From positions 6,501 to 41,259 of the forward strand of contig JAGRBF010000020.1 of assembly GCA_020434205.1 (NCBI GenBank): a stretch of DNA of 34,759 nucleotides, given 5' to 3'. The position numbers and the translations under genes are program-made. The first letter of the stretch is position 1. Each line of letters begins with the position of its first letter. This DNA is from Calditrichota bacterium. Its GTDB lineage: Bacteria > Calditrichota > Calditrichia > RBG-13-44-9 > J075. Below are positions 23,490 through 34,670 of the stretch, piece after piece. The notes beneath the pieces are model-generated. The model was not told the DNA's origin, did not search any database, and saw only the letters and a list, made by a program, of their open reading frames with translations.

Positions 23490-24674
23490 ATGGGATTTCC
23501 AACCAATTTGCTGCTAACCATTGCCTTTCTGGCGACGGCCGGGCTCACCATTATCGCGGTGCTGATTTACCAGATGTCCCGCAGTTCCTGGCGGGTTGGG
23601 CGCGAAGAGCGAATGCTGCAGGCGGTTTTGAAGGCCAGTCCCGCCATGATCCTGGCCTGGGACAATCAACAAATTATCCGCGTTTTTAACCTGGCCTGCG
23701 AAAACTGCTTCGGCCTCTCCCACGCGGAGGTGGTCGGGAAAGGGCTTCGCGAGGTTGGGATTTTTCCTGAGAAATTTCTGGCGGAACTGAACAACGGCAT
23801 AGACTTCCCCTTCCGCCTGCGCACCGAACGCCATATTGCCGCCGGAAACCACCGCAAGATAGATTGGATGATCAATCACCTGAAAGATGAGGAGCTGGGG
23901 TTGAATCTGGAAATCGCCGCAGGACAAGATATTACCCGGCTGGTGCACATCCAGGAGGATCTCGAATCCCACCGGGAAATCCTGCGGGCCATGAACGAAA
24001 AACTCTCCCAGCAGCGGGAGAGGCAGCGCCGCGATATTGCCGAACAACTGCATTCCGGGGCCGGACAAACCCTGGTAACCGCCAAAATAATCCTGGAAAC
24101 CCTGCTCAAGGACCCTGCCCTGGGAAAAGATCAGAAGGATAAGGTGGGTCAGGCGGTGGCCCTTTTACACCAGGTGGTGCAGGCCAACAACGCCATTATC
24201 TTCGAAATCAGCCCCAGGCTGCTCTACGACGTGGGCCTGGTGGACGCCCTGGAAGCACTGACCCGCACGGTTGCCGGACGTCATCAGCTAAAGTACGATT
24301 TTTCGGCGCTCGGCCAAATTCCCCGGGTGTCCGAACCGGCGGCCTTGCTGGTCTACCGGGCCTGCCAGGAGTTGCTGCACAACGCGGTTAAATATGCCCG
24401 GGCTACCGAACTAAGCGTGCAAATAAGCTTTCTGAAGGGTTGCCTGGAACTGGTGGTTAGTGATGACGGGATTGGGGTAAAGCCGGAAAAAATCATCAAA
24501 CGCGCCCCCCGGCAGGGCGGTTTCGGGCTCTACAATATCCGCAGCCGCCTGAATTATTACCAGGGGGAACTGCAGATTTCGCCAGTAGCCCAGGGCAGCG
24601 AATTTATTATCAAACTGCCGGTTCAACCGGAGGGAAAGGATGGGAGCAATGCCGATTCGGGTGCTGTTGGTTGA
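23490..24674 (+). CDS. Sensor histidine kinase (PAS, HisKA_3, HATPase), cassette copy 1
   Basis: A 394-residue membrane-bound kinase of the NarX/DesK class. One N-terminal helix (about 5-29) is followed by a PAS domain (about 40-150; PAMILAWDNQQIIRVFNLAC). The dimerisation helix is RRDIAEQLHSGAGQTL with His188. The ATP domain has the N box ELLHNAVKYA, G1 DDGIGV and G2 GFGLYNIRSR. The residue after His188 is Ser, where this class normally has Asp or Glu. The start at 23490 is chosen because the helix begins there; an open frame 24 codons longer would be repeat-derived sequence from a TTG. The ribosome site is weak. The response-regulator gene overlaps its 3' end by 35 bases. Confidence 0.92.
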   Translation: MGFPTNLLLTIAFLATAGLTIIAVLIYQMSRSSWRVGREERMLQAVLKASPAMILAWDNQQIIRVFNLACENCFGLSHAEVVGKGLREVGIFPEKFLAELNNGIDFPFRLRTERHIAAGNHRKIDWMINHLKDEELGLNLEIAAGQDITRLVHIQEDLESHREILRAMNEKLSQQRERQRRDIAEQLHSGAGQTLVTAKIILETLLKDPALGKDQKDKVGQAVALLHQVVQANNAIIFEISPRLLYDVGLVDALEALTRTVAGRHQLKYDFSALGQIPRVSEPAALLVYRACQELLHNAVKYARATELSVQISFLKGCLELVVSDDGIGVKPEKIIKRAPRQGGFGLYNIRSRLNYYQGELQISPVAQGSEFIIKLPVQPEGKDGSNADSGAVG

Positions 24675-25311
24675 AGATGAAACCATTTTGCGGGCCACCC
24701 TGGGGATGGCCCTGAATTCCCTGGGGCAAATGGAGCTGGTAGGGGAGGCGCCGGACGGCCGCACCGCCCTGAAGCTGGTTAAAAAGCTGCGGCCGGAGGT
24801 GGTGGTGATGGATATCCACCTGCCCGATGTCAGTGGGGTGGACGTGACCCGCCAGATCGTAGAATTGTATCCCGGAATAAAGGTGGTGGCGCTTTCGATC
24901 GAAAGCGATCCCATCTACGTGCGCAATATGCTGAGCGTGGGGGCCAAAGGTTATATGCTGAAACAATCCACCCCGGACGAGGTTGTTCATGCCATCAAAG
25001 AAGTGTATCAGGGGCATTATTACATCTGCGAGGCCCTTCACGGGGTAACCATCGGGGATTACGTACAGCAACTGACCGGCGGAATCCCGCGGCGCACCGG
25101 GAACCTGACTGCCCGGGAAATGGAGGTGTTTCGCCTGGTCGCCATCGGACATCCGCCTAAGGGCATCGCCGATATGCTGAGCATCTCCGTAAAAACCGCC
25201 GAGCACCACCGGCGCAACCTGATGGATAAAATGAAGGTCCGTTCCCTGCAGGGCTTGACGGTGTTGGCCATTCAGGAAGGGATCATCTCCGCAAAAGAGG
25301 TGCTTATGTAG
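24640..25311 (+). CDS. NarL/LuxR-type response regulator, cassette copy 1
   Basis: A 223-residue regulator. The receiver domain (about 5-120) has the acidic pair Glu12-Asp13, the phospho-acceptor Asp58 in VVMDIHLPD, Ser in VVALSIES and Lys in YMLKQS. The C-terminal LuxR helix-turn-helix (about 155-215) reads LTAREMEVFRLVAIGHPPKG and VKTAEHHRRNLMDKM. It should bind DNA when phosphorylated by the kinase encoded just upstream; the 35-base gene overlap suggests coupled translation. GGAGGG precedes the ATG; a second ATG three codons on is possible. Its stop overlaps the convergent seven-helix gene by eight bases. All key receiver residues are intact. Confidence 0.94.
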   Translation: MGAMPIRVLLVEDETILRATLGMALNSLGQMELVGEAPDGRTALKLVKKLRPEVVVMDIHLPDVSGVDVTRQIVELYPGIKVVALSIESDPIYVRNMLSVGAKGYMLKQSTPDEVVHAIKEVYQGHYYICEALHGVTIGDYVQQLTGGIPRRTGNLTAREMEVFRLVAIGHPPKGIADMLSISVKTAEHHRRNLMDKMKVRSLQGLTVLAIQEGIISAKEVLM

Positions 25312-25963
25312 CGGCGACCGGCCCGGAATGGGCGCGCTTCAGTAAAACCAGGGAAACCGCAAAGGCCAGATATTTAATGGCGTTGAAGATCACATTTATT
25401 GAGGCCAGCACGGTCCTGGTTTGGGCGGTATCCGTTTCGAATGCTCCAAAAACGGCGATCGCCGCAAAGCTGTAAACCAGTATTCCCCCCAAAAACCAGG
25501 TTTGATAATGCCGGAAAAACGATCCGGTGTGTTCCTCCCAGCCGTCCCGCAATCCGAAGATGCAGAGTAAAACCAGCAGGAATACCTCGATAATCCGGGA
25601 GGTGCTGTTGAGTTCGTTCAGGGCCAATCCTTCCCAACCCATCAGCCTGGCCAGAAGGAATCCCGCCACGAATATCAGGGAAACCAGGCGGACGAAGGCC
25701 GGTTTCGGCTTTTTGAGCCACGGTGCCACGGTAAAACCGATAAGGATAATTTCCAACGGGGTGAGCAGGCTAACCAGGCCGATGTTGGCGGTTTTGCTGC
25801 TGGCCAAAAAACCCGAGGCAATCTCGAACATACCGTTGATAATAATGTACAGGGTTATCCAGTTGAGATCCCGGGAGCGGGTCCGGATGCGAAATAACAA
25901 ATAGGCGCTGAAAAAGGATAGCGCAACACCGAAAGCGAAGCAGGCTAAAGCGAAATAGATCAT
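25304..25963 (-). CDS. Seven-helix membrane protein, cassette copy 1
   Basis: A 219-residue hydrophobic protein with about seven membrane helices and short loops; no enzyme motif. It is a distant paralogue of the protein at 32751. They share LLTPLEI/ILTPIEV after the second helix, TWFLGGILVY/TWFAVGILIY before the sixth, and similar length and helix order. Both lie immediately after and convergent with a kinase-regulator pair, and downstream of a CPPxC-protein gene. A receptor, transporter or anchor for the CPPxC protein is a guess from context. The ribosome site is weak and a terminator stands between it and the CPPxC gene, so it may have its own promoter or depend on read-through. Confidence 0.82.
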   Translation of the reverse strand: MIYFALACFAFGVALSFFSAYLLFRIRTRSRDLNWITLYIIINGMFEIASGFLASSKTANIGLVSLLTPLEIILIGFTVAPWLKKPKPAFVRLVSLIFVAGFLLARLMGWEGLALNELNSTSRIIEVFLLVLLCIFGLRDGWEEHTGSFFRHYQTWFLGGILVYSFAAIAVFGAFETDTAQTRTVLASINVIFNAIKYLAFAVSLVLLKRAHSGPVAAT

Positions 25964-26036
25964 GGCTGGGCAGGGGTCTGATTAACATGTCCGGTAGCTG
26001 TGTGGGTCAATACTATGGAAATTATGCCAAAGTTGC

Positions 26037-26067
26037 AAAAAAAAGCCCCGCCGCGGTGCGACGGGGC
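26037..26067 (-). terminator. Intrinsic terminator after CPPxC gene 1
   Basis: On the minus strand GCCCCG pairs with CGGGGC around an 11-base loop and is followed by eight T, nine bases after the stop at 26076. It should end most transcripts of the CPPxC gene before the membrane-protein gene. Confidence 0.93.
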
Positions 26068-26075
26068 CTGGCCGG

Positions 26076-26771
26076 TTAGGCAGCCAGCGGTCCCAACTCC
26101 GCAGGGACGGGGGCTTGGTAGTAGCTCAGGGCTGTCTTTTCCAGGAAACGATCACTGTTGAGCAGATTGTCCTGGAAACAAAACGGAGGACAAAGCAGGC
26201 TCAATTCGATCAATTCCCCGTGCATCATCAGGTTGCCCCGGGCGTCCACCCCGGCGATAACGATGTTGCGCACCCCTTCGGGGTCCGCGCCGAACAGGAA
26301 CTGCGCACCCACACAGGGGGCCTGGTTAAGGAGCCGGCGCAGGGCATCCGCCCCGAAGAAGCCGCCCTTGGGCTGTTGGGGATCCCGCAGGGCCCGGTAT
26401 ACCCGGGTTTTGCGGCCGGCTTCCAGCCAGCTGATCCCGTGATCCACCGCGTAGGGAGCGTAATTACCCTGACCATCCCGGGGCATTTCCGCCATAGAGC
26501 GCAAAATCCCGACGGGCACCAGGGGGTGCTCGTTGCGCGTGGTGGAAGGGACAACGATGAGTTCGTCGCCGATGCCCTCGCCCCGGGCGTAATAATAGTG
26601 CAACCCGGTAACTTCCGCCCCGGAAAGCAGCTTGAGCAGTGAGGCGCCGTCGAAAAACACCCCGCTGTTGAGGGGCGGTTGGGCAATGCTGCTCAGGTTG
26701 GCGATGAAACCCTGGGCCGCGGTTCTGTCGATTTTGTGTTGCCGGTCGGATGCAAAAACAGAATTTTTCAT
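26076..26771 (-). CDS. Two-repeat protein with CPPFC motif, cassette copy 1
   Basis: A 231-residue protein without signal peptide or membrane helix. It has two related units of about 50 residues: one at about 38-85 (GVFFDGASLLKLLSGAEVTG, then LHYYYARGEG and ELIVVPS) and one at about 138-185 (GGFFGADALRRLLNQAPCVG, then AQFLFGADPEG and NIVIAGVD). A short tail carries CPPFC (194-198) followed by DNLLNS. The protein at 33661 has the same two units and the same tail pattern, so this is a paralogous pair. Four conserved cysteine positions suggest metal binding, disulfide or modification; none is shown. GGAG seven bases upstream supports the ATG. I recall similar uncharacterised proteins in Bacteroidota, but cannot name a family. 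Confidence 0.85.
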   Translation of the reverse strand: MKNSVFASDRQHKIDRTAAQGFIANLSSIAQPPLNSGVFFDGASLLKLLSGAEVTGLHYYYARGEGIGDELIVVPSTTRNEHPLVPVGILRSMAEMPRDGQGNYAPYAVDHGISWLEAGRKTRVYRALRDPQQPKGGFFGADALRRLLNQAPCVGAQFLFGADPEGVRNIVIAGVDARGNLMMHGELIELSLLCPPFCFQDNLLNSDRFLEKTALSYYQAPVPAELGPLAA

Positions 26772-26893
26772 GATCAATCTCCAATAACATTTTAATTTCG
26801 GGTGGCCCTCGCCACCCTCCTAACACCGTTGTTTAAGGTTGTCCGGGGTTGAATTCCCTCCTTTCAGCAACGCCGGAGCGGTTAAGGGTAAAA

Positions 26894-26943
26894 AAAATGG
26901 GCGATCGGAAAAGGCTGGTTGCCATTTTCCAGTCGCCCATTTT
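26894..26943 (-). terminator. Strong intrinsic terminator after the 125-residue gene
   Basis: The arms AAAATGGGCGATCGGAAAA and TTTTCCAGTCGCCCATTTT pair over 19 positions with two mismatches, and a run of seven A on the plus strand gives seven T on the minus strand. It is 52 bases after the stop at 26996 and 122 bases before CPPxC gene 1. Confidence 0.93.
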
Positions 26944-26995
26944 CCCGCAGGCCTTTGGCAGGCCGTAAAGAAGCCGGTTTAATGCGAATGTTATT

Positions 26996-27373
26996 TTATT
27001 GAATCAGTTCTTTTTCCCCGCTAAACACTTTTTCAAGACTCAGCCTTTTTTCCCCGACCCGGATGTAATAGCGGTGAACTTTGCTTCCGCCCCGGTGGGT
27101 AATTTCCAGAATGTCCGGGTGAATAAAGCGTGCGGTTAAGCGCGGGTCCGGCGGCATTCGCCGGGTTCGGGAAATTTTGGCCAGATTGGCCAGGGAAATC
27201 TCACCCCGTTTGCCCCCACATTTCAGGGTGTTTGGATTAATGACCAGGCGATAACGAATCGCCCGGTCCGTGCAAGCCAGGAACAACTCCAGCACTCTGG
27301 CGATCTCCGGATGGATCTTTTCCCGTGGGTCAGGCTTTCGCCACAATACCCGTCCGTTGGTCATCTCGGCCAT
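26996..27373 (-). CDS. Hypothetical 125-residue basic protein
   Basis: A soluble, basic protein without signal peptide or membrane helix. Notable blocks are GRVLWRKPDPREKIHPEIAR, FLACTDRAIRYRLVIN, ISLANLAKISRTRRMPPDPR and GSKVHRYYIRVGEKRLSLEK. I do not recognise a family. AGGAG at seven bases upstream of the ATG and a strong terminator after the stop make it a credible single gene. The upstream spacer is shared with the divergent HTH/binding-domain regulator, so that regulator may control it. Confidence 0.72.
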   Translation of the reverse strand: MAEMTNGRVLWRKPDPREKIHPEIARVLELFLACTDRAIRYRLVINPNTLKCGGKRGEISLANLAKISRTRRMPPDPRLTARFIHPDILEITHRGGSKVHRYYIRVGEKRLSLEKVFSGEKELIQ

Positions 27374-27718
27374 GGTAATCTCCTGTCGCAAGTGAAGGGG
27401 CGGCGGAATTCACATGGGTGAATATATTTCCGGGCAATTCGCTTGTCAAGAAAAAACTTTGTCGACAACAAAATAAAATAGTGAAACAATAAAACCGTGT
27501 CAAAAATGAATCATTGAACGGGGCAGTAACCGCAGCCGCTTCCCGAAAAAGTTTGCCTTCAGTAAAAAAAGTGTTTCCCGACATAAATAAAGAGCGCATC
27601 AAAAAAAATGTTGCATATTGATTTTTTGGTGCTAAATATCCGGAGCGCGCGTTTGTTCTTGCCGATCCCGGTGCCCAAGGCAATCGCACCGGTACCGGAA
27701 ACCCTGTGGAGGCCAATC
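27374..27718. other. 345-bp divergent promoter region
   Basis: This A/T-rich spacer lies between the divergent 125-residue gene and the HTH/binding-domain regulator. It contains the 10-bp palindrome TTGTCGACAA near 27460. It also holds a possible promoter TTGCAT - 17 bases - AAATAT near 27611-27639, upstream of the regulator. Operator sites for the regulator would be expected here, but none is certain. Confidence 0.4.
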
Positions 27719-29788
27719 ATGGTCGGCAGTAAAATCAGAATCTGGCGGGAAGAAAAGGAAATGTCCCTGGGCACCCTGGCCAACCTGCTGGATATGGATC
27801 GCAGTACCCTGCATCGCTGGGAAAAAACTGAAAAAGATTATCCCTCGGTTGATGATAAACTGCTCTATCTGGACACCTGGCATCTGCTTGGAGCCGCCAT
27901 GATCCAGGACCTGGGGCTGTCGGTGGTTTGGTTGGCCCTTAGCCGAAGGGCCTCCTCCAAAAAAGGACAACACCCCAAATTCAGCTTCTTTGAAGAAGAG
28001 TGCCTGAAAATTCACATTCCCGGAAACGATCTGGAAGATTTCTACCAGAAAAACACCCTGAGCAATTTGCCCCGCTCCAGCGAGCAGGCTTTCCGGAGGT
28101 TAACTGCCACCAAGCGGGAGGAGGAGAAGGGTCCTGAAATCGTTTTGGCCACCGTGGCCAACGGGGTCTTTGACGAGGAAGATCTGAAACGCAACCACCT
28201 GACCAAAATCGGCTATATTCCCCTGCCCTTCAACTTTATCCAGGCCATTTCCAAAAGGGAACTCAACATCGCCAATGCCCGGGATTATGCCCGTCTATCA
28301 ATTGGCTTTATGCGCGGCAGTTATACCGAAACCCTGATCCGCAAATGGCTGAGGCCCCGCTTTTTTCCCCCGGATGGCGGCGGAGAGCTGATCGCCTTTC
28401 CCGAGTTCGAAGCCAGCGCTATCCAGCGTTATCTGGACAGCGGCATGATCGACGTATTCATTGTTGGGCAACCCTACGCCACCGAACTGCAGCACACCCT
28501 GGGGAGCTTCTACGAGTGGCCTTTCGTCTCTCTGGCCGGCCAGAAGGGGCTGGCCCAAAATCCCACTCCGGCGGGGGGAATCGACCTTCGCAACCGCTAT
28601 TGGATTCTCGCCAAAAACCTGGACGAGTTGATGATCAAAAGGCTGCTGCGCGCCTTGATCAAAGCCAACCGTTTTTTCAAGGAGGAGCGCAGCGAAGCCA
28701 TTCGCATTATTACCGAAACCATCGGCCTGACCCCGGGGCGCTTCGAGAAACATCTCCTGGACGAAATGAATTTCGAGTTTCGCATCGCCCGCGAAGTGGT
28801 GTACAACCAGGTCCTGGTGAACACCGGAACCCCCAGCAGGGATTTGTCTCTGAGTTATGTCGCCGATATCGCCCTTTCCATGATCGGCTTTGGGCTGTCG
28901 GCTGCCTCATCGGGGAAAAGTCTGTTCGAAGAAAACGGTCTGTCAATGAAGGCCGAGCCTTACCTGCGGAGCGAAAGCGCCTTCGAATCCATGCTGCAGG
29001 GAAAATTCGACGCTTGCATCGTTTCCCCAAAATTGTATCACAGTCGGGAAAAGGAGGGGCTTCGCCAGGTGGCCACCATCACTGCTCCTTCCCATTTTCT
29101 GCAGGTACTGCGGCCCCGGCGGGACAGGGAGAGCGCCCCGGAACTGTGGCGATATTACCAAGCTGTTGCCAAACGGAAGCTGGATCAGTTCGGCGGGGGA
29201 AATTTCACCATCGGGTTCCTGCAGGGATCTTTCTCGCAATTTATTGTTTCTCAAAAACTGCTGCCCCGCCTGACCTTCGACCGCGATCAATTTGCTCCGC
29301 ACCTGAAACCGATTCCCGCGGTGGAGGATCCCCGGGACAGCCGCGATTTGTCGGCCCGCCTGGACCTAACCGTGGAGGAAATCCTGAAGCAGTTGAACAG
29401 CCCGGAGCCGCACCGGATGGATATCTTTGTGGGCATGGATCCCCTGATGTCCCGCCTTTACAGCGCCCTGGATCCGCAGGGCGAAAATTATTATCTGGAG
29501 CCCCTATACCATACCCTGGAACTGGGGGCCAATCGGGTTGAATATGCGGTGCTGATGACCGAAGAAGCAGTTGCGGACCGGGAAAAATGCTGCCGCTTTC
29601 TGAGGAGCATTCACAAAACATTTGCTCTGGCGGGGGACGATCCGGAATTGGTTTACAACTACATCCAGGGTGGCCAGGGCAACCATCCTCTGTCCATGGA
29701 TCGCGATACCTGGTGCCGGTTTCGTTTTGAACTGAAGCTGGATTACGATTTGTTGCTAAAAGATATTCTGACCTTAACCGCCCCCTGA
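27719..29788 (+). CDS. HTH regulator fused to tandem solute-binding-like domains
   Basis: A 689-residue soluble protein. Residues 5-40 form an XRE/Cro-type helix-turn-helix (IRIWREEKEMSLGTLANLLD followed by STLHRWEK). The rest resembles periplasmic-binding-protein folds of the NMT1/substrate-binding type, but without a signal peptide, and repeated: LSIGFMRGSYTETLIRKWL begins near 193 and FTIGFLQGSFSQFIVSQKLL near 496, with a further segment between. Cytoplasmic binding domains joined to DNA-binding domains sense small ligands in several regulator families. The start at 27719 is set by GGAGG seven bases upstream; a longer open frame lacks one. Its stop overlaps the convergent FecR-like gene by 15 bases. 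Ligand and targets unknown. Confidence 0.83.
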   Translation: MVGSKIRIWREEKEMSLGTLANLLDMDRSTLHRWEKTEKDYPSVDDKLLYLDTWHLLGAAMIQDLGLSVVWLALSRRASSKKGQHPKFSFFEEECLKIHIPGNDLEDFYQKNTLSNLPRSSEQAFRRLTATKREEEKGPEIVLATVANGVFDEEDLKRNHLTKIGYIPLPFNFIQAISKRELNIANARDYARLSIGFMRGSYTETLIRKWLRPRFFPPDGGGELIAFPEFEASAIQRYLDSGMIDVFIVGQPYATELQHTLGSFYEWPFVSLAGQKGLAQNPTPAGGIDLRNRYWILAKNLDELMIKRLLRALIKANRFFKEERSEAIRIITETIGLTPGRFEKHLLDEMNFEFRIAREVVYNQVLVNTGTPSRDLSLSYVADIALSMIGFGLSAASSGKSLFEENGLSMKAEPYLRSESAFESMLQGKFDACIVSPKLYHSREKEGLRQVATITAPSHFLQVLRPRRDRESAPELWRYYQAVAKRKLDQFGGGNFTIGFLQGSFSQFIVSQKLLPRLTFDRDQFAPHLKPIPAVEDPRDSRDLSARLDLTVEEILKQLNSPEPHRMDIFVGMDPLMSRLYSALDPQGENYYLEPLYHTLELGANRVEYAVLMTEEAVADREKCCRFLRSIHKTFALAGDDPELVYNYIQGGQGNHPLSMDRDTWCRFRFELKLDYDLLLKDILTLTAP

Positions 29789-30271
29789 TTCCCGCGCGAG
29801 ACTGCGAATCTCTCCGGGAGAAAGTTTCTCCCAACTACCGTCCGGGATGTTGCTGTTCCGGAATTCCCCCTCGCCTTTTTCCAGCCCCACCGTCAGGCGT
29901 CCCTCTTCAAGGTTCAGCTGTAGGGTCCCCTGCTTCAACAGACAATCCCCCCAAAGGGTGCGGATAAACAATGGGGTGGCCTCCTGCGCTGTGGGGGTAA
30001 AATCTATCCGGACCTGGCCCTGCTGCAACAACAGCTCCTGGCCCGGCCGCCAGCCGGCTATTCCCGCCAGGCGGGTTCCCGCTTCCAGCGACAGGGAAAT
30101 TTGCGGGGAAAGCTGCACTGTGCGGCTTTCCGTGCTGATGGTGGTTTTGCCCGGGTCGGCGGGTGCGCCCGGGAAGCGCAGCCACAGGAAAACCAGCAGG
30201 ACCACCGCGCTCAGGGAAACCAGCAGGCGCGGCAGGGTGACGGGACGTTCGCGGCCCGGGGGAGGGGACAT
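29774..30271 (-). CDS. FecR-like membrane-anchored protein
   Basis: A 165-residue protein with one N-terminal membrane helix (about 13-32, LPRLLVSLSAVVLLVFLWLR). The external part resembles the FecR domain: VQLSPQISLSLEAGTRLAG, then LLLQQGQVRIDF, IRTLWGDCLLKQGTLQLNLE and LTVGLEKGEGEF. FecR proteins sense surface receptors and control a sigma factor, but this one lacks the usual cytoplasmic N-terminal sigma-binding part and no sigma gene is adjacent. AGGAG seven bases upstream supports the start. It converges with and overlaps the HTH/binding-domain gene by 15 bases. Confidence 0.75.
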   Translation of the reverse strand: MSPPPGRERPVTLPRLLVSLSAVVLLVFLWLRFPGAPADPGKTTISTESRTVQLSPQISLSLEAGTRLAGIAGWRPGQELLLQQGQVRIDFTPTAQEATPLFIRTLWGDCLLKQGTLQLNLEEGRLTVGLEKGEGEFRNSNIPDGSWEKLSPGEIRSLARESGGG

Positions 30272-30300
30272 AGGTATTCTCCTGAATTTTGATTCAAATT

Positions 30301-30373
30301 AACCACTCAACCACTCAACTACTTAACCACTCAACTACTTAACCACCAAGACACCAAGACGCCAAGGACGCCA
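30301..30373. repeat. 8-bp-period degenerate tandem repeat (AACCACTC type)
   Basis: Eight consecutive 8-bp units run AACCACTC, AACCACTC, AACTACTT, AACCACTC, AACTACTT, AACCACCA, AGACACCA, AGACGCCA, then a 9-bp AGGACGCCA. The array starts 30 bases upstream of the FecR-like start codon. It decays progressively from left to right. Confidence 0.9.
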
Positions 30374-30562
30374 ACGAAAGTGATTCCGCTATTTAACCGC
30401 TAAGCCGTATTTCCGGTTGCAAATTTGGCTGCACCCGCTTATGTTGTGGCCGGATACCCCAAGATAGCCGCATTTTCCCTCAGGATCAAATGAGACCGCA
30501 TCGCTCCAATGGCTTGGGTTGTTGGTGTGCCGGAGTCCCTTTCAATAAAAAGAGCGCGCAAA

Positions 30563-30793
30563 AATGCTCCTTTGGAGCAGTTTGTGGGCAAAAGGAGCAT
30601 TGCTTCTAACCTGACGACAATCTAAGTTGACTGTAGAGTTTGCTCCAAATTATTGCGGTCCCTGCGGAGAAACTGAGGTATGGGTCACTGGTGAAAAGGT
30701 ACGCGTCTCGACCCCCCCCGGAGTGATCTCGCCCGTGGAACATGATTGTGTTTCTACAAAAAATTGCCGGATAGCCTTTATCCGGCTTTTTTT
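30563..30793 (+). ncRNA. Candidate structured RNA or leader ending in a terminator
   Basis: Two TGCTCC segments (30565 and 30641) and two GGAGCA segments (30574 and 30594) allow mutually exclusive pairings. These are a tight 6-bp hairpin, an 11-bp stem of AATGCTCCTTT with AAAGGAGCATT, or a longer-range stem using 30641. An intrinsic terminator closes the region 107 bases before kinase 2. This is the layout of an attenuator or a small RNA gene. It matches no riboswitch class I know. The limits are approximate and transcription is inferred. Confidence 0.35.
30766..30793. terminator. Intrinsic terminator upstream of kinase 2
   Basis: GCCGGATA and TATCCGGC form a perfect 8-bp stem around GCCTT, followed by seven T and preceded by a run of A, so it can work in both directions. 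No protein gene ends before it on the plus strand, which is why a non-coding transcript is suspected. Confidence 0.92.
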
Positions 30794-30899
30794 GTATGAA
30801 AATTTGACGATTTCTTCTATATTTTTTTAAAGGGCTTTGGACCGGTAATACCTTCAGATATCACGCCAGAACAAAAGCAGAACCAGACCCGGGAGCAGT

Positions 30900-32048
30900 A
30901 TGGGCGACCCCGTTTTCATCGTTTACATCTTCGGAATTGTGGTCCTGGGATTTATCATCGCCTTTTTTGCGGTTTCCCTGCTCTCCGGGCGGGCCATGAG
31001 CCGCCAGAACAAGTTTCTGGCCGGGATCCTGGAAGGCAGCTCCGCCCTGATCATCGCCTGGGACGACCAGCAGAAAGTGGTGGCCTTCAACGAGGCCTGC
31101 GAAAAGCTGACCGGCCTTTCCGGCAAAGAAATCAACGGGATGCCGGCCGCCCAGCTCAACATTTTCCCCCCCGAAACCTTTTCCGGACCAATCCCCCCGC
31201 TGCCTACCGTTTCCACCTGGAAAGGCAAGGACGGCCGGGAGGTTTTTATCCAATGGCATTTTTCCGCCATCGAAGCGGCCTACGGGCAGCCCCGTCTGAT
31301 CATCGCTTCCGGCATCGACGTTACCCGCTTGAACAACGCCCTGGCCCAGGTCGAGGATTACAGCGTGCGGCTGCGCACCTCGGCAGCCCGCATGGCCAAT
31401 CTGGAAGAGGAGGAGCGCCGCAAAATTGCCCAGGTGCTGCACGATCGGATGGGGCAGGATCTCAGCGCCGGGCGCATGACCCTCAACGCCCTCAAGCAGG
31501 ACAACAACCCTCCCGAAATGGCGGCCCGCATTGAGGATCTGAGCAATATTTTCAGGGACATTATCCAAAGCTCCCGGGAGTTGATCGCCGAGTTGAGTCC
31601 CCGCGAATTGTATAAGGTTGGTTTGCAGGCCGCCCTGAAAACCCGCATCGAATACCTGCGCGACAAATGGCGGGAAAGCCTGGAGTTCGAAGGGCAACTC
31701 AAGGACGAAAGCGATTTGCCGGAGCACCTGCCCTATTTCCTGTATTCCGCCTGCGGGGAGTTGCTTCACAACGCCCATAAGCACGCCTCCGGCAGCGAGG
31801 TGGTGGTGTCCCTTTTCCGGGAGGAGGGCCATATTGTTCTGCAGGTTTCGGACAACGGTCCCGGTTTCGACCCGGTGGCTCTGGAGGAAAGCCTGGGGCA
31901 CACCAGCGGTTTCGGGCTGTTTTACATCCGGGACCGCACCCGCTATTTCGGGGGGCGCTTTGAGGTGCAATCCCAACCGGGAGAAGGCAGCGAGTTTAAT
32001 CTGTTTTTTCCGACCCAAACAGTGGAGAAGGGAGTGGCAAATGCATAG
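30900..32048 (+). CDS. Sensor histidine kinase (PAS, HisKA_3, HATPase), cassette copy 2
   Basis: A 382-residue paralogue of the kinase at 23490. It has one N-terminal helix (about 5-28, VFIVYIFGIVVLGFIIAFFA) and a PAS domain (about 40-145; ALIIAWDDQQKVVAFNEAC, matching AMILAWDNQQIIRVFNLAC of copy 1). The dimerisation box is RRKIAQVLHDRMGQDLSA with His181 followed by the normal Asp, unlike copy 1. The ATP domain has GELLHNAHKHA, DNGPGF and GFGLFYIRDR. GGGAG close to the ATG supports the start. The regulator gene overlaps its stop by eight bases. The upstream leader contains alternative hairpins and a terminator. Confidence 0.94.
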   Translation: MGDPVFIVYIFGIVVLGFIIAFFAVSLLSGRAMSRQNKFLAGILEGSSALIIAWDDQQKVVAFNEACEKLTGLSGKEINGMPAAQLNIFPPETFSGPIPPLPTVSTWKGKDGREVFIQWHFSAIEAAYGQPRLIIASGIDVTRLNNALAQVEDYSVRLRTSAARMANLEEEERRKIAQVLHDRMGQDLSAGRMTLNALKQDNNPPEMAARIEDLSNIFRDIIQSSRELIAELSPRELYKVGLQAALKTRIEYLRDKWRESLEFEGQLKDESDLPEHLPYFLYSACGELLHNAHKHASGSEVVVSLFREEGHIVLQVSDNGPGFDPVALEESLGHTSGFGLFYIRDRTRYFGGRFEVQSQPGEGSEFNLFFPTQTVEKGVANA

Positions 32049-32706
32049 AATTCTGGTGGTAGACGATCATACGGTGATGGCCGAGGGCATCAAAATGCTG
32101 ATGGAAAAGGGGGGGGATTTCCGGGTGGTGGACATGGCCCAGACTGCTGAGGACGGGGTTCGACTGGCCCTGCGCCTCAATCCGGACGCCATTATCATGG
32201 ACCTGCATTTTGCCCACAGCCGCATGACCGGCTTTGAGGCAATCCATATGATTCGTCGCCAGCACCCGTCCCTGCCCATCCTGACCCTTTCCTGGGAAAA
32301 CACCGCCGGTTTCGTGATGAAGGCCCTGGAGGCGGGAGCGGCCGGCTACATCGTTAAGGAGGATTCCTCTGAGGAACTGGTTTCCGCGGTTCGCAAGGTA
32401 ATTGCCGGGGAGCGATTTATCAGCCATCGCCTGCGGGACAAGGTAATGGAGGCCCTGCTGGATCGCACCACCTCGGAGAACACCCGCTCCGGCAACGGCT
32501 TTTTGAACAAACGGGAAATCGCCCTGCTTATCCACCTGGCCCGGGGCAAATGTCCCAAGGAAATCGCCGACGAGCTGAAGCGCAATCACAAAACCATCGA
32601 AACCCACCGCCGCAACCTGTTCCGCAAGATCGGGGTGGACAACCTGGCCTCCCTGGTCAAATACGCCATCCAGAACAAATACATCAAGCCCGAGGATATC
32701 CAGTAG
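32041..32706 (+). CDS. NarL/LuxR-type response regulator, cassette copy 2
   Basis: A 221-residue regulator. The receiver has Asp8-Asp9, the phospho-acceptor Asp54 in IIMDLHF, Ser in LTLSWEN and Lys in YIVKEDS. The loop after Asp54 (LHFAHSRMTGFEA) is about two residues longer than the usual LxMPxMxGxEA form, and lacks the Pro. The LuxR helix-turn-helix (about 155-215) reads LNKREIALLIHLARGKCPKE and HKTIETHRRNLFRKI. The start ATG is inside the last codons of the kinase gene (8-base overlap), so translation is coupled; AGGGAG lies just upstream. Its stop TAG is the first triplet of an inverted repeat shared with the convergent membrane-protein gene. Confidence 0.94.
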   Translation: MHRILVVDDHTVMAEGIKMLMEKGGDFRVVDMAQTAEDGVRLALRLNPDAIIMDLHFAHSRMTGFEAIHMIRRQHPSLPILTLSWENTAGFVMKALEAGAAGYIVKEDSSEELVSAVRKVIAGERFISHRLRDKVMEALLDRTTSENTRSGNGFLNKREIALLIHLARGKCPKEIADELKRNHKTIETHRRNLFRKIGVDNLASLVKYAIQNKYIKPEDIQ

Positions 32707-32753
32707 GTGCGAGGCATGCCTCGCACCCAACATCCGGGCATGCCTCACACCTA
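32704..32753. repeat. Inverted repeat containing both convergent stop codons
   Basis: The left arm TAGGTGCGAGGCATGCC (32704-32720) pairs with GGCATGCCTCACACCTA (32737-32753) over 17 positions with one mismatch. The left arm is also half of a perfect 22-bp palindrome at 32706-32727. The regulator's TAG is at the outer end of the left arm; the membrane-protein gene's TAG, on the other strand, is at the outer end of the right arm. It probably ends transcription from both sides, though T-runs are lacking. Confidence 0.88.
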
Positions 32754-33422
32754 CCGCCAGGATTTTTCGACCCAATACAAACCCGCCAGAAAACAGATGC
32801 TGCGCAGGCAACTGGCTAGGTTGTTGATGATCCAGATGGCTATTTGCTCTTGCGGTTGGCTCAAATCGAAAGCGAACATTACGCCAGTCGTAGGTAGGAA
32901 ATAAATGAGGATACCAACCGCAAACCAGGTTTCGGGGAACGAGAGCATATTGCCCTTGGCCTGCAAAGTGATTCGAATTAAAGCCCATAAGGCCAAAATG
33001 CTGATTAATAAATGGCCGCTAACCAGGACAGTAGAATTAAGCGTTGGAGAACCGTTGTTCTCAATTAGCCAGGGGGAGTTTGCCAGAACAAAAAGGGTAA
33101 ATAGGAATCCCAAGATTAGGATGGGGCGGAAGTTCTTTTTCCCAAAAATGGCAGTGGTCAATATGGGTCCGGTTAACCATACCTCAATAGGTGTTAAAAT
33201 ATTTAACAAAAAAAGATTACTTATTTGGTTTGCTTGCAAAATGTGGCCAATTACCTGGACAACCAAATAAACAATCATCAATGATAAGATGGTACGCAAG
33301 CCAATTGATAAGCGTTCATTTTTCAAGAATATTCGAATTGACCACAGGGCGGTAATGCCAAGAAGGAAGTATTGCGCATAATAGGTGGTCAGGAGAAGGT
33401 TGAAGGTGGTATTCGAATCCAT
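32751..33422 (-). CDS. Seven-helix membrane protein, cassette copy 2
   Basis: A 223-residue protein with about seven membrane helices, a distant paralogue of the one at 25304. The shared blocks are ILTPIEV and TWFAVGILIY, at the same places in the helix order. The base composition is clearly richer in A and T than its neighbours (runs such as TTAACAAAAAAAG), which suggests a different history from the other copy or relaxed selection. The ATG at 33422 is preferred over a TTG 14 codons upstream, though neither has a strong ribosome site. The CPPxC gene lies upstream on the same strand, beyond a hairpin. Function unknown. Confidence 0.82.
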   Translation of the reverse strand: MDSNTTFNLLLTTYYAQYFLLGITALWSIRIFLKNERLSIGLRTILSLMIVYLVVQVIGHILQANQISNLFLLNILTPIEVWLTGPILTTAIFGKKNFRPILILGFLFTLFVLANSPWLIENNGSPTLNSTVLVSGHLLISILALWALIRITLQAKGNMLSFPETWFAVGILIYFLPTTGVMFAFDLSQPQEQIAIWIINNLASCLRSICFLAGLYWVEKSWR

Positions 33423-33608
33423 TTTATACGGCGGATTTTGGTGGTGAGAAAATGCTACAAGCAAATCATGATGGCAAAGAAAATCGCTTTACCTTGTTCG
33501 CTGCTCCCTGAAACTTGCAGCAAAATTGAACAGACCAATTAAATACGACCACAATGTATTGAATTACATTGGATTAATAAAATTTAAAACGAATTTTCTG
33601 CCTTTAAT

Positions 33609-33640
33609 AGAATAGCCCCCATTTGAGTGAGGGCTATTCT
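33609..33640. terminator. Hairpin terminator after CPPxC gene 2
   Basis: GAATAGCCC and GGGCTATTC pair perfectly, with one further A-T pair, around 12 bases. It lies 21 bases after the stop at 33661. T-runs are short on both sides, so termination may be partial. Position matches the terminator after CPPxC gene 1 (26037). Confidence 0.65.
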
Positions 33641-33660
33641 TATCAGTTCGAGATCCAATA

Positions 33661-34302
33661 TTACATTACTTTCAGGGTCACCCCACGCATGGCCGGCAGG
33701 CCGCTGTTGAGGGGATTGAGGAGACCACAAACCGGCGGGCAGGGCAGTCCTAACTCCGCCAGTTGTCCCTGCCAGCGGTCCTCGCCCTGCGGGGTCACCG
33801 CGGAAATCACGATCACCCGCTGGCGGTGTTCGTTGAGCCCGAAGTGGAAGGTCAGCCCCGGGGTGTCCGGCTGGTTGAGCACCCGCTCCACCGCGGCCCG
33901 GTTAAAGGCCCCGCCGTGGATCTCGCCCTGGTTAATCCCGGCCCGGTAGCGGGCGGTATACCCGGCGGCGGCCGCCACGCTCAGTTGCGGGGAGGCAAAT
34001 CCCGGGCGTTCCTCTTCCGCCAGCGGGGCGCCCAGAAACAGCACCGCCTCGTCCAGCAGGTCGTGTCCGGCTTCGTTGGTGGCGGTGAGAACCAGCACGT
34101 TGCCGTCCTCGAGATCCTTGCCGTAATAGTAGCGGATGCCCGCCGCATTGGGCTGGGCGAGCACCTTCCGCAGCGCAGCGGCGCTGAAGTAAGCTGCAAC
34201 CCCGCCCTCGCCGAGGGGATTGTTTTCCAGATACTGATTTACATAGACCTTGCCTTCGGCTTCGGTGATATTGTGATTGCGTTGAGAAAGAGACGATTTC
34301 AT
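33661..34302 (-). CDS. Two-repeat protein with CPPVC motif, cassette copy 2
   Basis: A 213-residue protein, paralogue of the one at 26076, with no signal peptide or membrane helix. Unit 1 (about 34-84) reads GVAAYFSAAALRKVLAQPNA, then AGIRYYYGKD and VLVLTATN. Unit 2 (about 128-175) reads GGAFNRAAVERVLNQPDTPG, then LTFHFGLNEH and RVIVISAV. The tail has CPPVC (188-192), then NPLNS as in copy 1 (DNLLNS). The unit pattern is G-G-x-F-x-x-x-A-L/V-x-x-x-L-x-Q-P, then aromatic-rich and hydrophobic strands. AAGGAG seven bases before the ATG supports the start. A strong terminator lies 82-125 bases upstream, as before copy 1. Role unknown; possibly a signal or cargo for the adjacent membrane protein and kinase. 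Confidence 0.85.
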   Translation of the reverse strand: MKSSLSQRNHNITEAEGKVYVNQYLENNPLGEGGVAAYFSAAALRKVLAQPNAAGIRYYYGKDLEDGNVLVLTATNEAGHDLLDEAVLFLGAPLAEEERPGFASPQLSVAAAAGYTARYRAGINQGEIHGGAFNRAAVERVLNQPDTPGLTFHFGLNEHRQRVIVISAVTPQGEDRWQGQLAELGLPCPPVCGLLNPLNSGLPAMRGVTLKVM

Positions 34303-34500: not shown

Positions 34501-34670
34501 GGACCATTGGACCGATGGACCATTGGACCGATGGACCGATGGACCGATGGACCCAAGGACCAGAGGCGATGCTAAGACTGAAAGAGGACCATTGGACCGA
34601 TGGACCAGAGGCGATGCTAAGACTGAAAGAGGACCATTGGACCGATGGACCAGAGGACTATGGGCGAGAC
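34501..34670. repeat. Compound tandem repeat: 8-bp GGACCGAT units and 45-bp higher-order unit
   Basis: Eight units of the form GGACCATT, GGACCGAT, GGACCCAA or GGACCAGA run from 34501 to 34564. A 21-bp insert beginning GGCGATGCTAAG follows. Three 8-bp units plus this insert form a 45-bp unit, present twice in full (34560-34604 and 34605-34649) and once in part. The two full copies appear identical. Confidence 0.95.

Follow-up and report, generated by a model that had tools for sequence, protein, structure and literature searches.

Several described bacterial systems combine a sensor kinase and a response regulator with an additional protein. In UhpABC, the membrane sensor UhpC acts together with the kinase UhpB and the NarL-type regulator UhpA. 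The quorum-sensing system ComQXPA runs from a signal to a membrane receptor part, a kinase and a NarL-type regulator; the ComX peptide is small and modified, and ComP is a fused many-helix kinase. The kinase QseE and the regulator QseF belong to another class than the kinases and regulators described below. In streptomycetes, the secreted soluble protein HbpS feeds the sensor kinase SenS and the regulator SenR (PMC4991794), and the accessory lipoprotein QseG, encoded with QseE and QseF, acts on the kinase (PMC12691602). We have analysed a stretch of 34,759 nt (hereafter the window) from a Calditrichota draft genome of 5.6 Mb, in which a four-gene signalling cassette is present twice. Each cassette encodes a histidine kinase, a NarL-type response regulator, a seven-helix membrane protein (7TM) and a soluble protein bearing a C-P-P-x-C motif (CPPxC protein).

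The cassettes resemble UhpABC in that a kinase of HisKA_3 type and its NarL-type regulator adjoin a multi-helix membrane protein, to which sensing would also fall here; UhpB is also among the nearest NCBIfam kinase models for the window kinases. However, UhpC is a 12-helix homologue of sugar-phosphate transporters and the N-terminus of UhpB is itself many-helix, whereas the cassettes contain an unrelated 7TM partner, a one-helix kinase and a constant fourth soluble gene. ComQXPA shares the gene order signal, membrane part, kinase and NarL-type regulator, but in place of a peptide CPPxC offers a folded domain, about 100 amino acids long, whose tail is conserved, and the surrounding genes include no recognisable modifying enzyme. 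HbpS-SenS-SenR lacks a 7TM protein, and its HbpS is a secreted protein. An export signal was detected in 16 of 86 CPPxC proteins, and the Bacteroidota kinases examined have no outer domain; CPPxC and HbpS were compared solely through scans of Pfam and NCBIfam, in which CPPxC fell into no family. In the Qse system, likewise devoid of a 7TM protein, QseG exerts its effect on QseE directly. A literature search for such four-gene systems, or for rhodopsin-like 7TM partners of bacterial kinases, gave nothing relevant, most subscription journals being outside its coverage. Neither the two families CPPxC and 7TM nor their combination turned up in the libraries and literature searched. The joint function of the four genes is well supported by the comparison of gene neighbourhoods presented below. 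With moderate confidence, we favour a reading in which CPPxC, soluble or exported and produced in excess, would act by way of the 7TM protein as a transducer that confers sensing on a sensorless kinase.

Distribution and linkage were examined in 396 Bacteroidota and 40 Calditrichota genomes, and the distribution of the 7TM family also in 385 genomes mostly of other groups. Around each CPPxC gene, a 7TM gene was sought up to 2.5 kb away, and kinase and NarL-type regulator genes up to 6 kb away. With the first profile, CPPxC genes were detected in 7 of the 40 Calditrichota and 27 of the 396 Bacteroidota genomes. The 7TM family is represented in at least 80 of the Bacteroidota genomes and, with a loose cut-off, in 9 of the Calditrichota genomes (three of them weakly). 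At an E-value of 1e-6, it was recovered from 10 of the 385 genomes, of which six are Calditrichota and one coincides by coordinates with a Bacteroidota genome already counted. Among the 40 Bacteroidota CPPxC genes, 38 have a 7TM gene within 2.5 kb and the remaining two run off their contig; a kinase is found nearby in 37 cases and a NarL-type regulator in 30. Forty further loci were chosen because a 7TM gene was present where the first profile had missed CPPxC. A wider profile detected CPPxC in 25 of these; 36 of the 40 contain a kinase and 39 a regulator, and several of the remaining loci display by eye a small upstream open reading frame (ORF) with a CPP-like tail or a GIRFYYAAYP-like core. 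A tally of the nearest neighbours of 7TM genes gave 58 with CPPxC upstream and a kinase downstream, the kinase being of HisKA_3 type in 50 and hybrid in 8. The association is looser in Calditrichota, where the same rule gives a 7TM neighbour for 9 of 15 CPPxC genes and a tenth (locus L035) has a divergent six-helix neighbour. As a named example, the plasmid NZ_CP089539.1 of Spirosoma oryzicola carries successively WP_232562942 (CPPxC, E-value 2e-11), WP_232562943 (7TM, 1e-41), a histidine kinase and a response regulator, the first two being annotated as hypothetical. The original prediction for this DNA held that the four genes work together, and this is well supported by their repeated co-occurrence in distant genomes, in Bacteroidota (38 of 38 assessable CPPxC genes with a 7TM gene) and in Calditrichota.

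In Bacteroidota, the genes follow each other on a single strand in the order CPPxC, 7TM, kinase and regulator. Within the Calditrichota family of the source genome, the NarL-type cassettes read have the kinase-regulator pair facing the 7TM-CPPxC pair (the two window copies, L040 and also L045, where three genes intervene), and L156 has the same convergent arrangement with no recognised CPPxC gene. Retention of the linkage although the strands have changed speaks against simple inertia of an operon. The CPPxC-7TM pair is also found with hybrid PAS-HisKA kinases (L034, L036 and L095) and with an HTH_26 protein (L035 and, by a similar ORF, L037), and 7TM genes accompany a HisKA_2 and LytTR pair in L117 and a LytS-type and LytTR pair in L133. 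The NarL-type pair, predicted to be the response circuit, is thus present in many cassettes but is not universal, since hybrid kinases, LytTR pairs and HTH regulators occur in its place.

Two variants of these arrangements were also observed. The regions L035:6481-8211 and L037:6127-7813 encode a regulator of HTH_26 type, a 7TM-like protein extended at its N-terminus by a soluble part, and an exported CPPxC protein, which corresponds to a kinase-free variant. Six Bacteroidota loci (L063, L072, L077, L124, L058 and L075) contain two or three consecutive 7TM genes, or the CPPxC-7TM pair twice ahead of one kinase, and possibly represent multi-receptor units.

In the window, the eight genes were confirmed at their predicted positions, strands and overlaps. 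In copy 1, the kinase (23490-24674, forward strand) comprises one transmembrane (TM) helix, a PAS domain, a HisKA_3-like DHp and a HATPase domain. The regulator (24640-25311, forward; Response_reg and GerE) starts before the kinase ends. The 7TM gene (25304-25963, reverse) matches no Pfam family, and the CPPxC gene (26076-26777, reverse) encodes two tandem domains with CPPFC in the second; ATG at 26771 is the likelier start over TTG at 26777. Copy 2 consists of a kinase (30900-32048, forward; one TM helix, PAS, HisKA_3 and HATPase), an overlapping regulator (32041-32706, forward; Response_reg and GerE), a 7TM gene identified by a profile match (32751-33464, reverse; likelier start, ATG at 33422) and a CPPxC gene (33661-34302, reverse) for two tandem domains with CPPVC in the second. 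Pairwise alignment of the two copies gave identities of 32% for the kinases, 30% for the regulators, 25% for the 7TM proteins and 34% for the CPPxC proteins. In whole-genome searches, the copy 2 sequences recovered their copy 1 counterparts with E-values of 5e-8 (7TM) and 5e-18 (CPPxC). Hidden Markov models (HMMs) of the four families, trained solely on Bacteroidota sequences, were run against the 173 ORFs of the window. They matched the CPPxC copies at 6e-28 and 4e-19, the 7TM copies at 2e-21 and 4e-21, the kinases at 1e-43 and 6e-42 and the regulators at 4e-59 and 5e-50, and no other window ORF scored below an E-value of 0.1. Because these models pick exactly two genes per family, the two sets are truly homologous, and the claim that the copies are diverged but related is borne out by this profile comparison. 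Judged by sequence identities of 25-34%, the cassettes are old paralogues. A recent duplication was rejected, since the distance between the two copies is about the same as that to other cassettes of Calditrichota.

The window kinases and regulators are, from their domain content, ordinary members of NarL-type two-component systems. Kinase 2 matches the Pfam models HisKA_3 (4.9e-11) and HATPase (1.3e-14). Kinase 1 matches HATPase (1.7e-14) and has the histidine box, with HS replacing HD (LHSGAGQ, compared with LHDRMGQ in kinase 2), and no Pfam match to HisKA_3. The residue following the phosphorylated histidine is Asp in 48 of 53 kinases (three being unreadable); as Ser occupies this position in kinase 1, this enzyme may be weakened or phosphatase-biased. 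Both regulators combine REC with a helix-turn-helix (HTH) domain of GerE/LuxR type, and their alignment shows Asp58 of regulator 1 to be conserved. All nine Bacteroidota kinases scanned are composed of one TM helix, HisKA_3 (starting at residue 23-76) and HATPase, and none of the nine contains a sensor or outer domain; we therefore infer that sensing is left to their partners. The window kinases carry one extra PAS domain, cytoplasmic, which may add a second input.

The 7TM proteins are mostly 200-260 amino acids long. In an alignment of 95 sequences, helix 3 displays a conserved Glu/Gln (E71 of copy 1; E in 57% and Q in 26%), helix 2 an E/Q/D position and helix 6 the sequence F-W---G---Y. Lys and Arg are enriched in loops 1 and 3 and at the C-terminus, a charge pattern indicating an outer N-terminus and an inner C-terminus. 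A model built from nine sequences has seven helices (pLDDT 79, pTM 0.76), and its top Foldseek matches, none of them significant, are G protein-coupled receptors and microbial rhodopsins, with a best TM-score of 0.63 (4hyj). Membership of the microbial rhodopsins was rejected because the retinal lysine is not conserved: the helix 7 column of Lys197 (copy 1) contains K or R in just 15% of the 95 sequences. A Pfam scan of 34 7TM proteins gave no match, sugar-phosphate transporters included, and recognised no transporter or protease family; the curated cut-offs of the described 7TM sensor families in Pfam and NCBIfam were reached by none of the 7TM proteins. The original prediction proposed a receptor or an exporter. 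The absence of sensor domains in the partner kinases, together with the orientation of the helices, favours a receptor or transducer, while leaving the role itself putative.

A hairpin between the CPPxC and membrane genes had been predicted and is present in both copies, on the reverse strand. In copy 1, it lies directly 3' of the CPPxC stop codon (26069-26043; 12-bp stem with a U-tract, z -2.7), as a terminator or attenuator in the CPPxC-7TM gap. In copy 2, it is also 3' of the CPPxC stop codon (about 33640-33610) and consists of a 13-bp stem with a poor U-tract (z -4.5). Hairpins stronger than almost all mononucleotide shuffles were scored in CPPxC-7TM gaps of 50-350 bp. They were detected in 13 of 22 such gaps, against 1 of 26 gaps between the remaining cassette genes (Fisher p 5e-5); in a comparison set of ordinary same-strand gaps, the count was 53 of 192. 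A known RNA element was rejected, as the hairpins gave no Rfam match. Binding-protein genes head transporter operons and their products are made in excess over the membrane parts. By analogy, the simplest reading of a hairpin following the CPPxC gene is that the CPPxC protein would be produced in excess of its membrane partners.

The CPPxC domain comprises about 100 residues with the pattern GG-F-(x6)-iLnQ--c-GiR-YyG ... vLVGvd--gnDm--G ... CPPxC---N-LN. According to the alignment and profile matches, the motif is limited to the C-terminal domain of the two-domain window proteins. The C-terminal tail is conserved across the family, not hypervariable. A weak model of the domain (pLDDT 62) has two helices, three strands and a disordered tail, and its comparison with PDB structures gave no significant match. 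Neither CPPxC nor 7TM has a Pfam match, an NCBIfam assignment or a sequence relative in the PDB. A known defence system was rejected, as the PADLOC anti-phage defence models matched none of the eight proteins tried, and a plasmid search with one CPPxC protein as query gave no match. The source genome contains a third CPPxC gene (G000:C601:32114-32596; L006:8115-8600) for a single domain with a signal-peptide-like N-terminus, ending 336 bp short of a contig end. It adjoins a gene for a protein of about 511 amino acids, and counterparts of similar size precede the CPPxC-7TM-hybrid kinase sets of L034 and L036; a third cassette has therefore probably been cut off by the contig end. Nine loci (L100, L108, L126, L128, L129, L133, L134, L135 and L136) have, in the CPPxC position, ORFs missed by the profile that retain a CPP-like tail, a core resembling GIRFYYAAYP or a lipoprotein signal and look like far relatives.

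The export signals, identified by a simple rule as Sec-like or lipoprotein, bear on two other explanations. In one, the 7TM protein exports or matures CPPxC and the kinase-regulator pair controls the production of secreted CPPxC, as in bacteriocin or quorum-sensing operons. Most CPPxC proteins have no signal peptide yet a membrane protein adjoins them in all assessable Bacteroidota cases, the tail is modelled as disordered, and the hairpin suggests a high output, all of which agree with export. However, the CPPxC proteins of L060, L068, L083, L089 and L093 have Sec or lipoprotein signals of their own, so the 7TM protein is not needed for their export, and the adjacent 7TM gene is retained. Moreover, a specificity signal would be expected to be hypervariable, the 7TM protein belongs to no recognised transporter or protease family and a sensorless kinase would still require an input. 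We consider this explanation improbable. In the other, CPPxC stays in the cytoplasm and partners or restrains the 7TM protein or the kinase, sensing a metal, redox state or small ligand through its Cys pair, and the 7TM protein senses an unrelated outside cue. This agrees with the 70 signal-less members and with the conserved C-P-P-x-C pair, which could bind a metal or form a disulfide. It seems unlikely given that 16 members with the CPPxC domain carry a likely export signal, that exported CPPxC proteins stand beside a 7TM protein and a hybrid kinase in L034 and L036, and that a stoichiometric subunit would not be expected in excess over membrane parts. The original prediction made CPPxC a signal or effector. 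A role as signal or ligand fits the hairpin and the export signals of some members; since most members have no such signal, this role too is putative.

In the favoured reading, where CPPxC acts through the 7TM transducer, the cassette would form one four-part signalling unit. The soluble CPPxC protein, two-domain in the window and exported or a lipoprotein in some relatives, would be overproduced relative to the membrane parts by means of the hairpin, and would bring, or turn into, the stimulus. The 7TM protein would detect CPPxC or its ligand and relay a change within the membrane to the kinase anchored by a single helix, which would phosphorylate the NarL-type regulator and so alter transcription. 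The contacts of the 7TM protein with the kinase and with CPPxC, the direction of signalling, the CPPxC excess and the individual roles are all inferred. A more specific version would make CPPxC an extracellular or periplasmic protein signal for a 7TM receptor of rhodopsin topology, able to couple to sensorless kinases of several classes (HisKA_3/NarL, hybrid, and LytS or HisKA_2/LytTR) and possibly HTH regulators as well, as a general undescribed module of Bacteroidota and Calditrichota; we put this forward only tentatively. Kinases of the four-gene set are common, given the frequency of the 7TM family in Bacteroidota, and those examined have no visible sensor. Their missing sensor is probably the combination of CPPxC and 7TM, which accompany the kinase and are both absent from Pfam and NCBIfam, and how these kinases sense becomes a directly testable question. 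If the 7TM protein is indeed the receptor for CPPxC, the cassette would represent a modular bacterial ligand-receptor-kinase system.

Co-inheritance was assessed by Mantel correlations over 53 quartets, with label swaps within multi-cassette genomes (500 swaps) as control. The correlation is 0.91 for kinase-regulator, 0.84 for 7TM-kinase, 0.83 for 7TM-regulator and 0.47-0.51 for CPPxC with the others. The control supports the pairs kinase-regulator (2/500), CPPxC-7TM (3/500) and 7TM-regulator (16/500). In the trees, the four Calditrichota cassettes form one group for the kinase, for CPPxC and weakly for the regulator, while the 7TM tree is unresolved except for the pairing of the two window copies. 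The matching trees that the original prediction looked for were therefore obtained for part of the pairs. The co-phylogeny owes much to shared species history, which, together with the occasional separation of CPPxC and 7TM genes, is what would be expected if the four genes were merely co-carried by descent or transfer and the circuit were the kinase and regulator alone. Order and content nevertheless persist across the 396-genome Bacteroidota sample and, with rearranged strands, in Calditrichota, and the 7TM gene stays beside kinases of four classes; linkage without function is accordingly highly improbable.

Several observations weigh against the reading of CPPxC as acting through a 7TM transducer. 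The label-swap support is weak for 7TM-kinase (67/500) and nil for CPPxC-kinase (372/500). No export signal is recognisable in 70 of the 86 CPPxC proteins, both window copies included, so that for these members a contact on the outer side of the 7TM protein is only putative. The Cys motif is missing in four loosely matched members (L076, L081, L082 and L084) and is hence not universal. The Foldseek matches of the 7TM model are not significant, the best E-value being 0.06. Finally, five Calditrichota CPPxC genes are solitary (L038, L039, L041, L042 and L046), and the 7TM genes of L156, L123 and L125 have no recognised CPPxC partner.

Outside the cassettes, the window contains between the two copies (27608-29788) a gene for a 726-amino-acid protein with an N-terminal HTH and apparently two repeated binding-protein-like halves (SIGFMRGSYTETLIRKWLRPRF / TIGFLQGSFSQFIVSQKLLPRLTF). 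Just past copy 2, near the contig end, positions 34501-34656 consist of tandem repeats of GGACCATTGGACCGAT plus a 45-bp unit, and additional short repeat arrays are located at 1287-1334 and 30301-30346.

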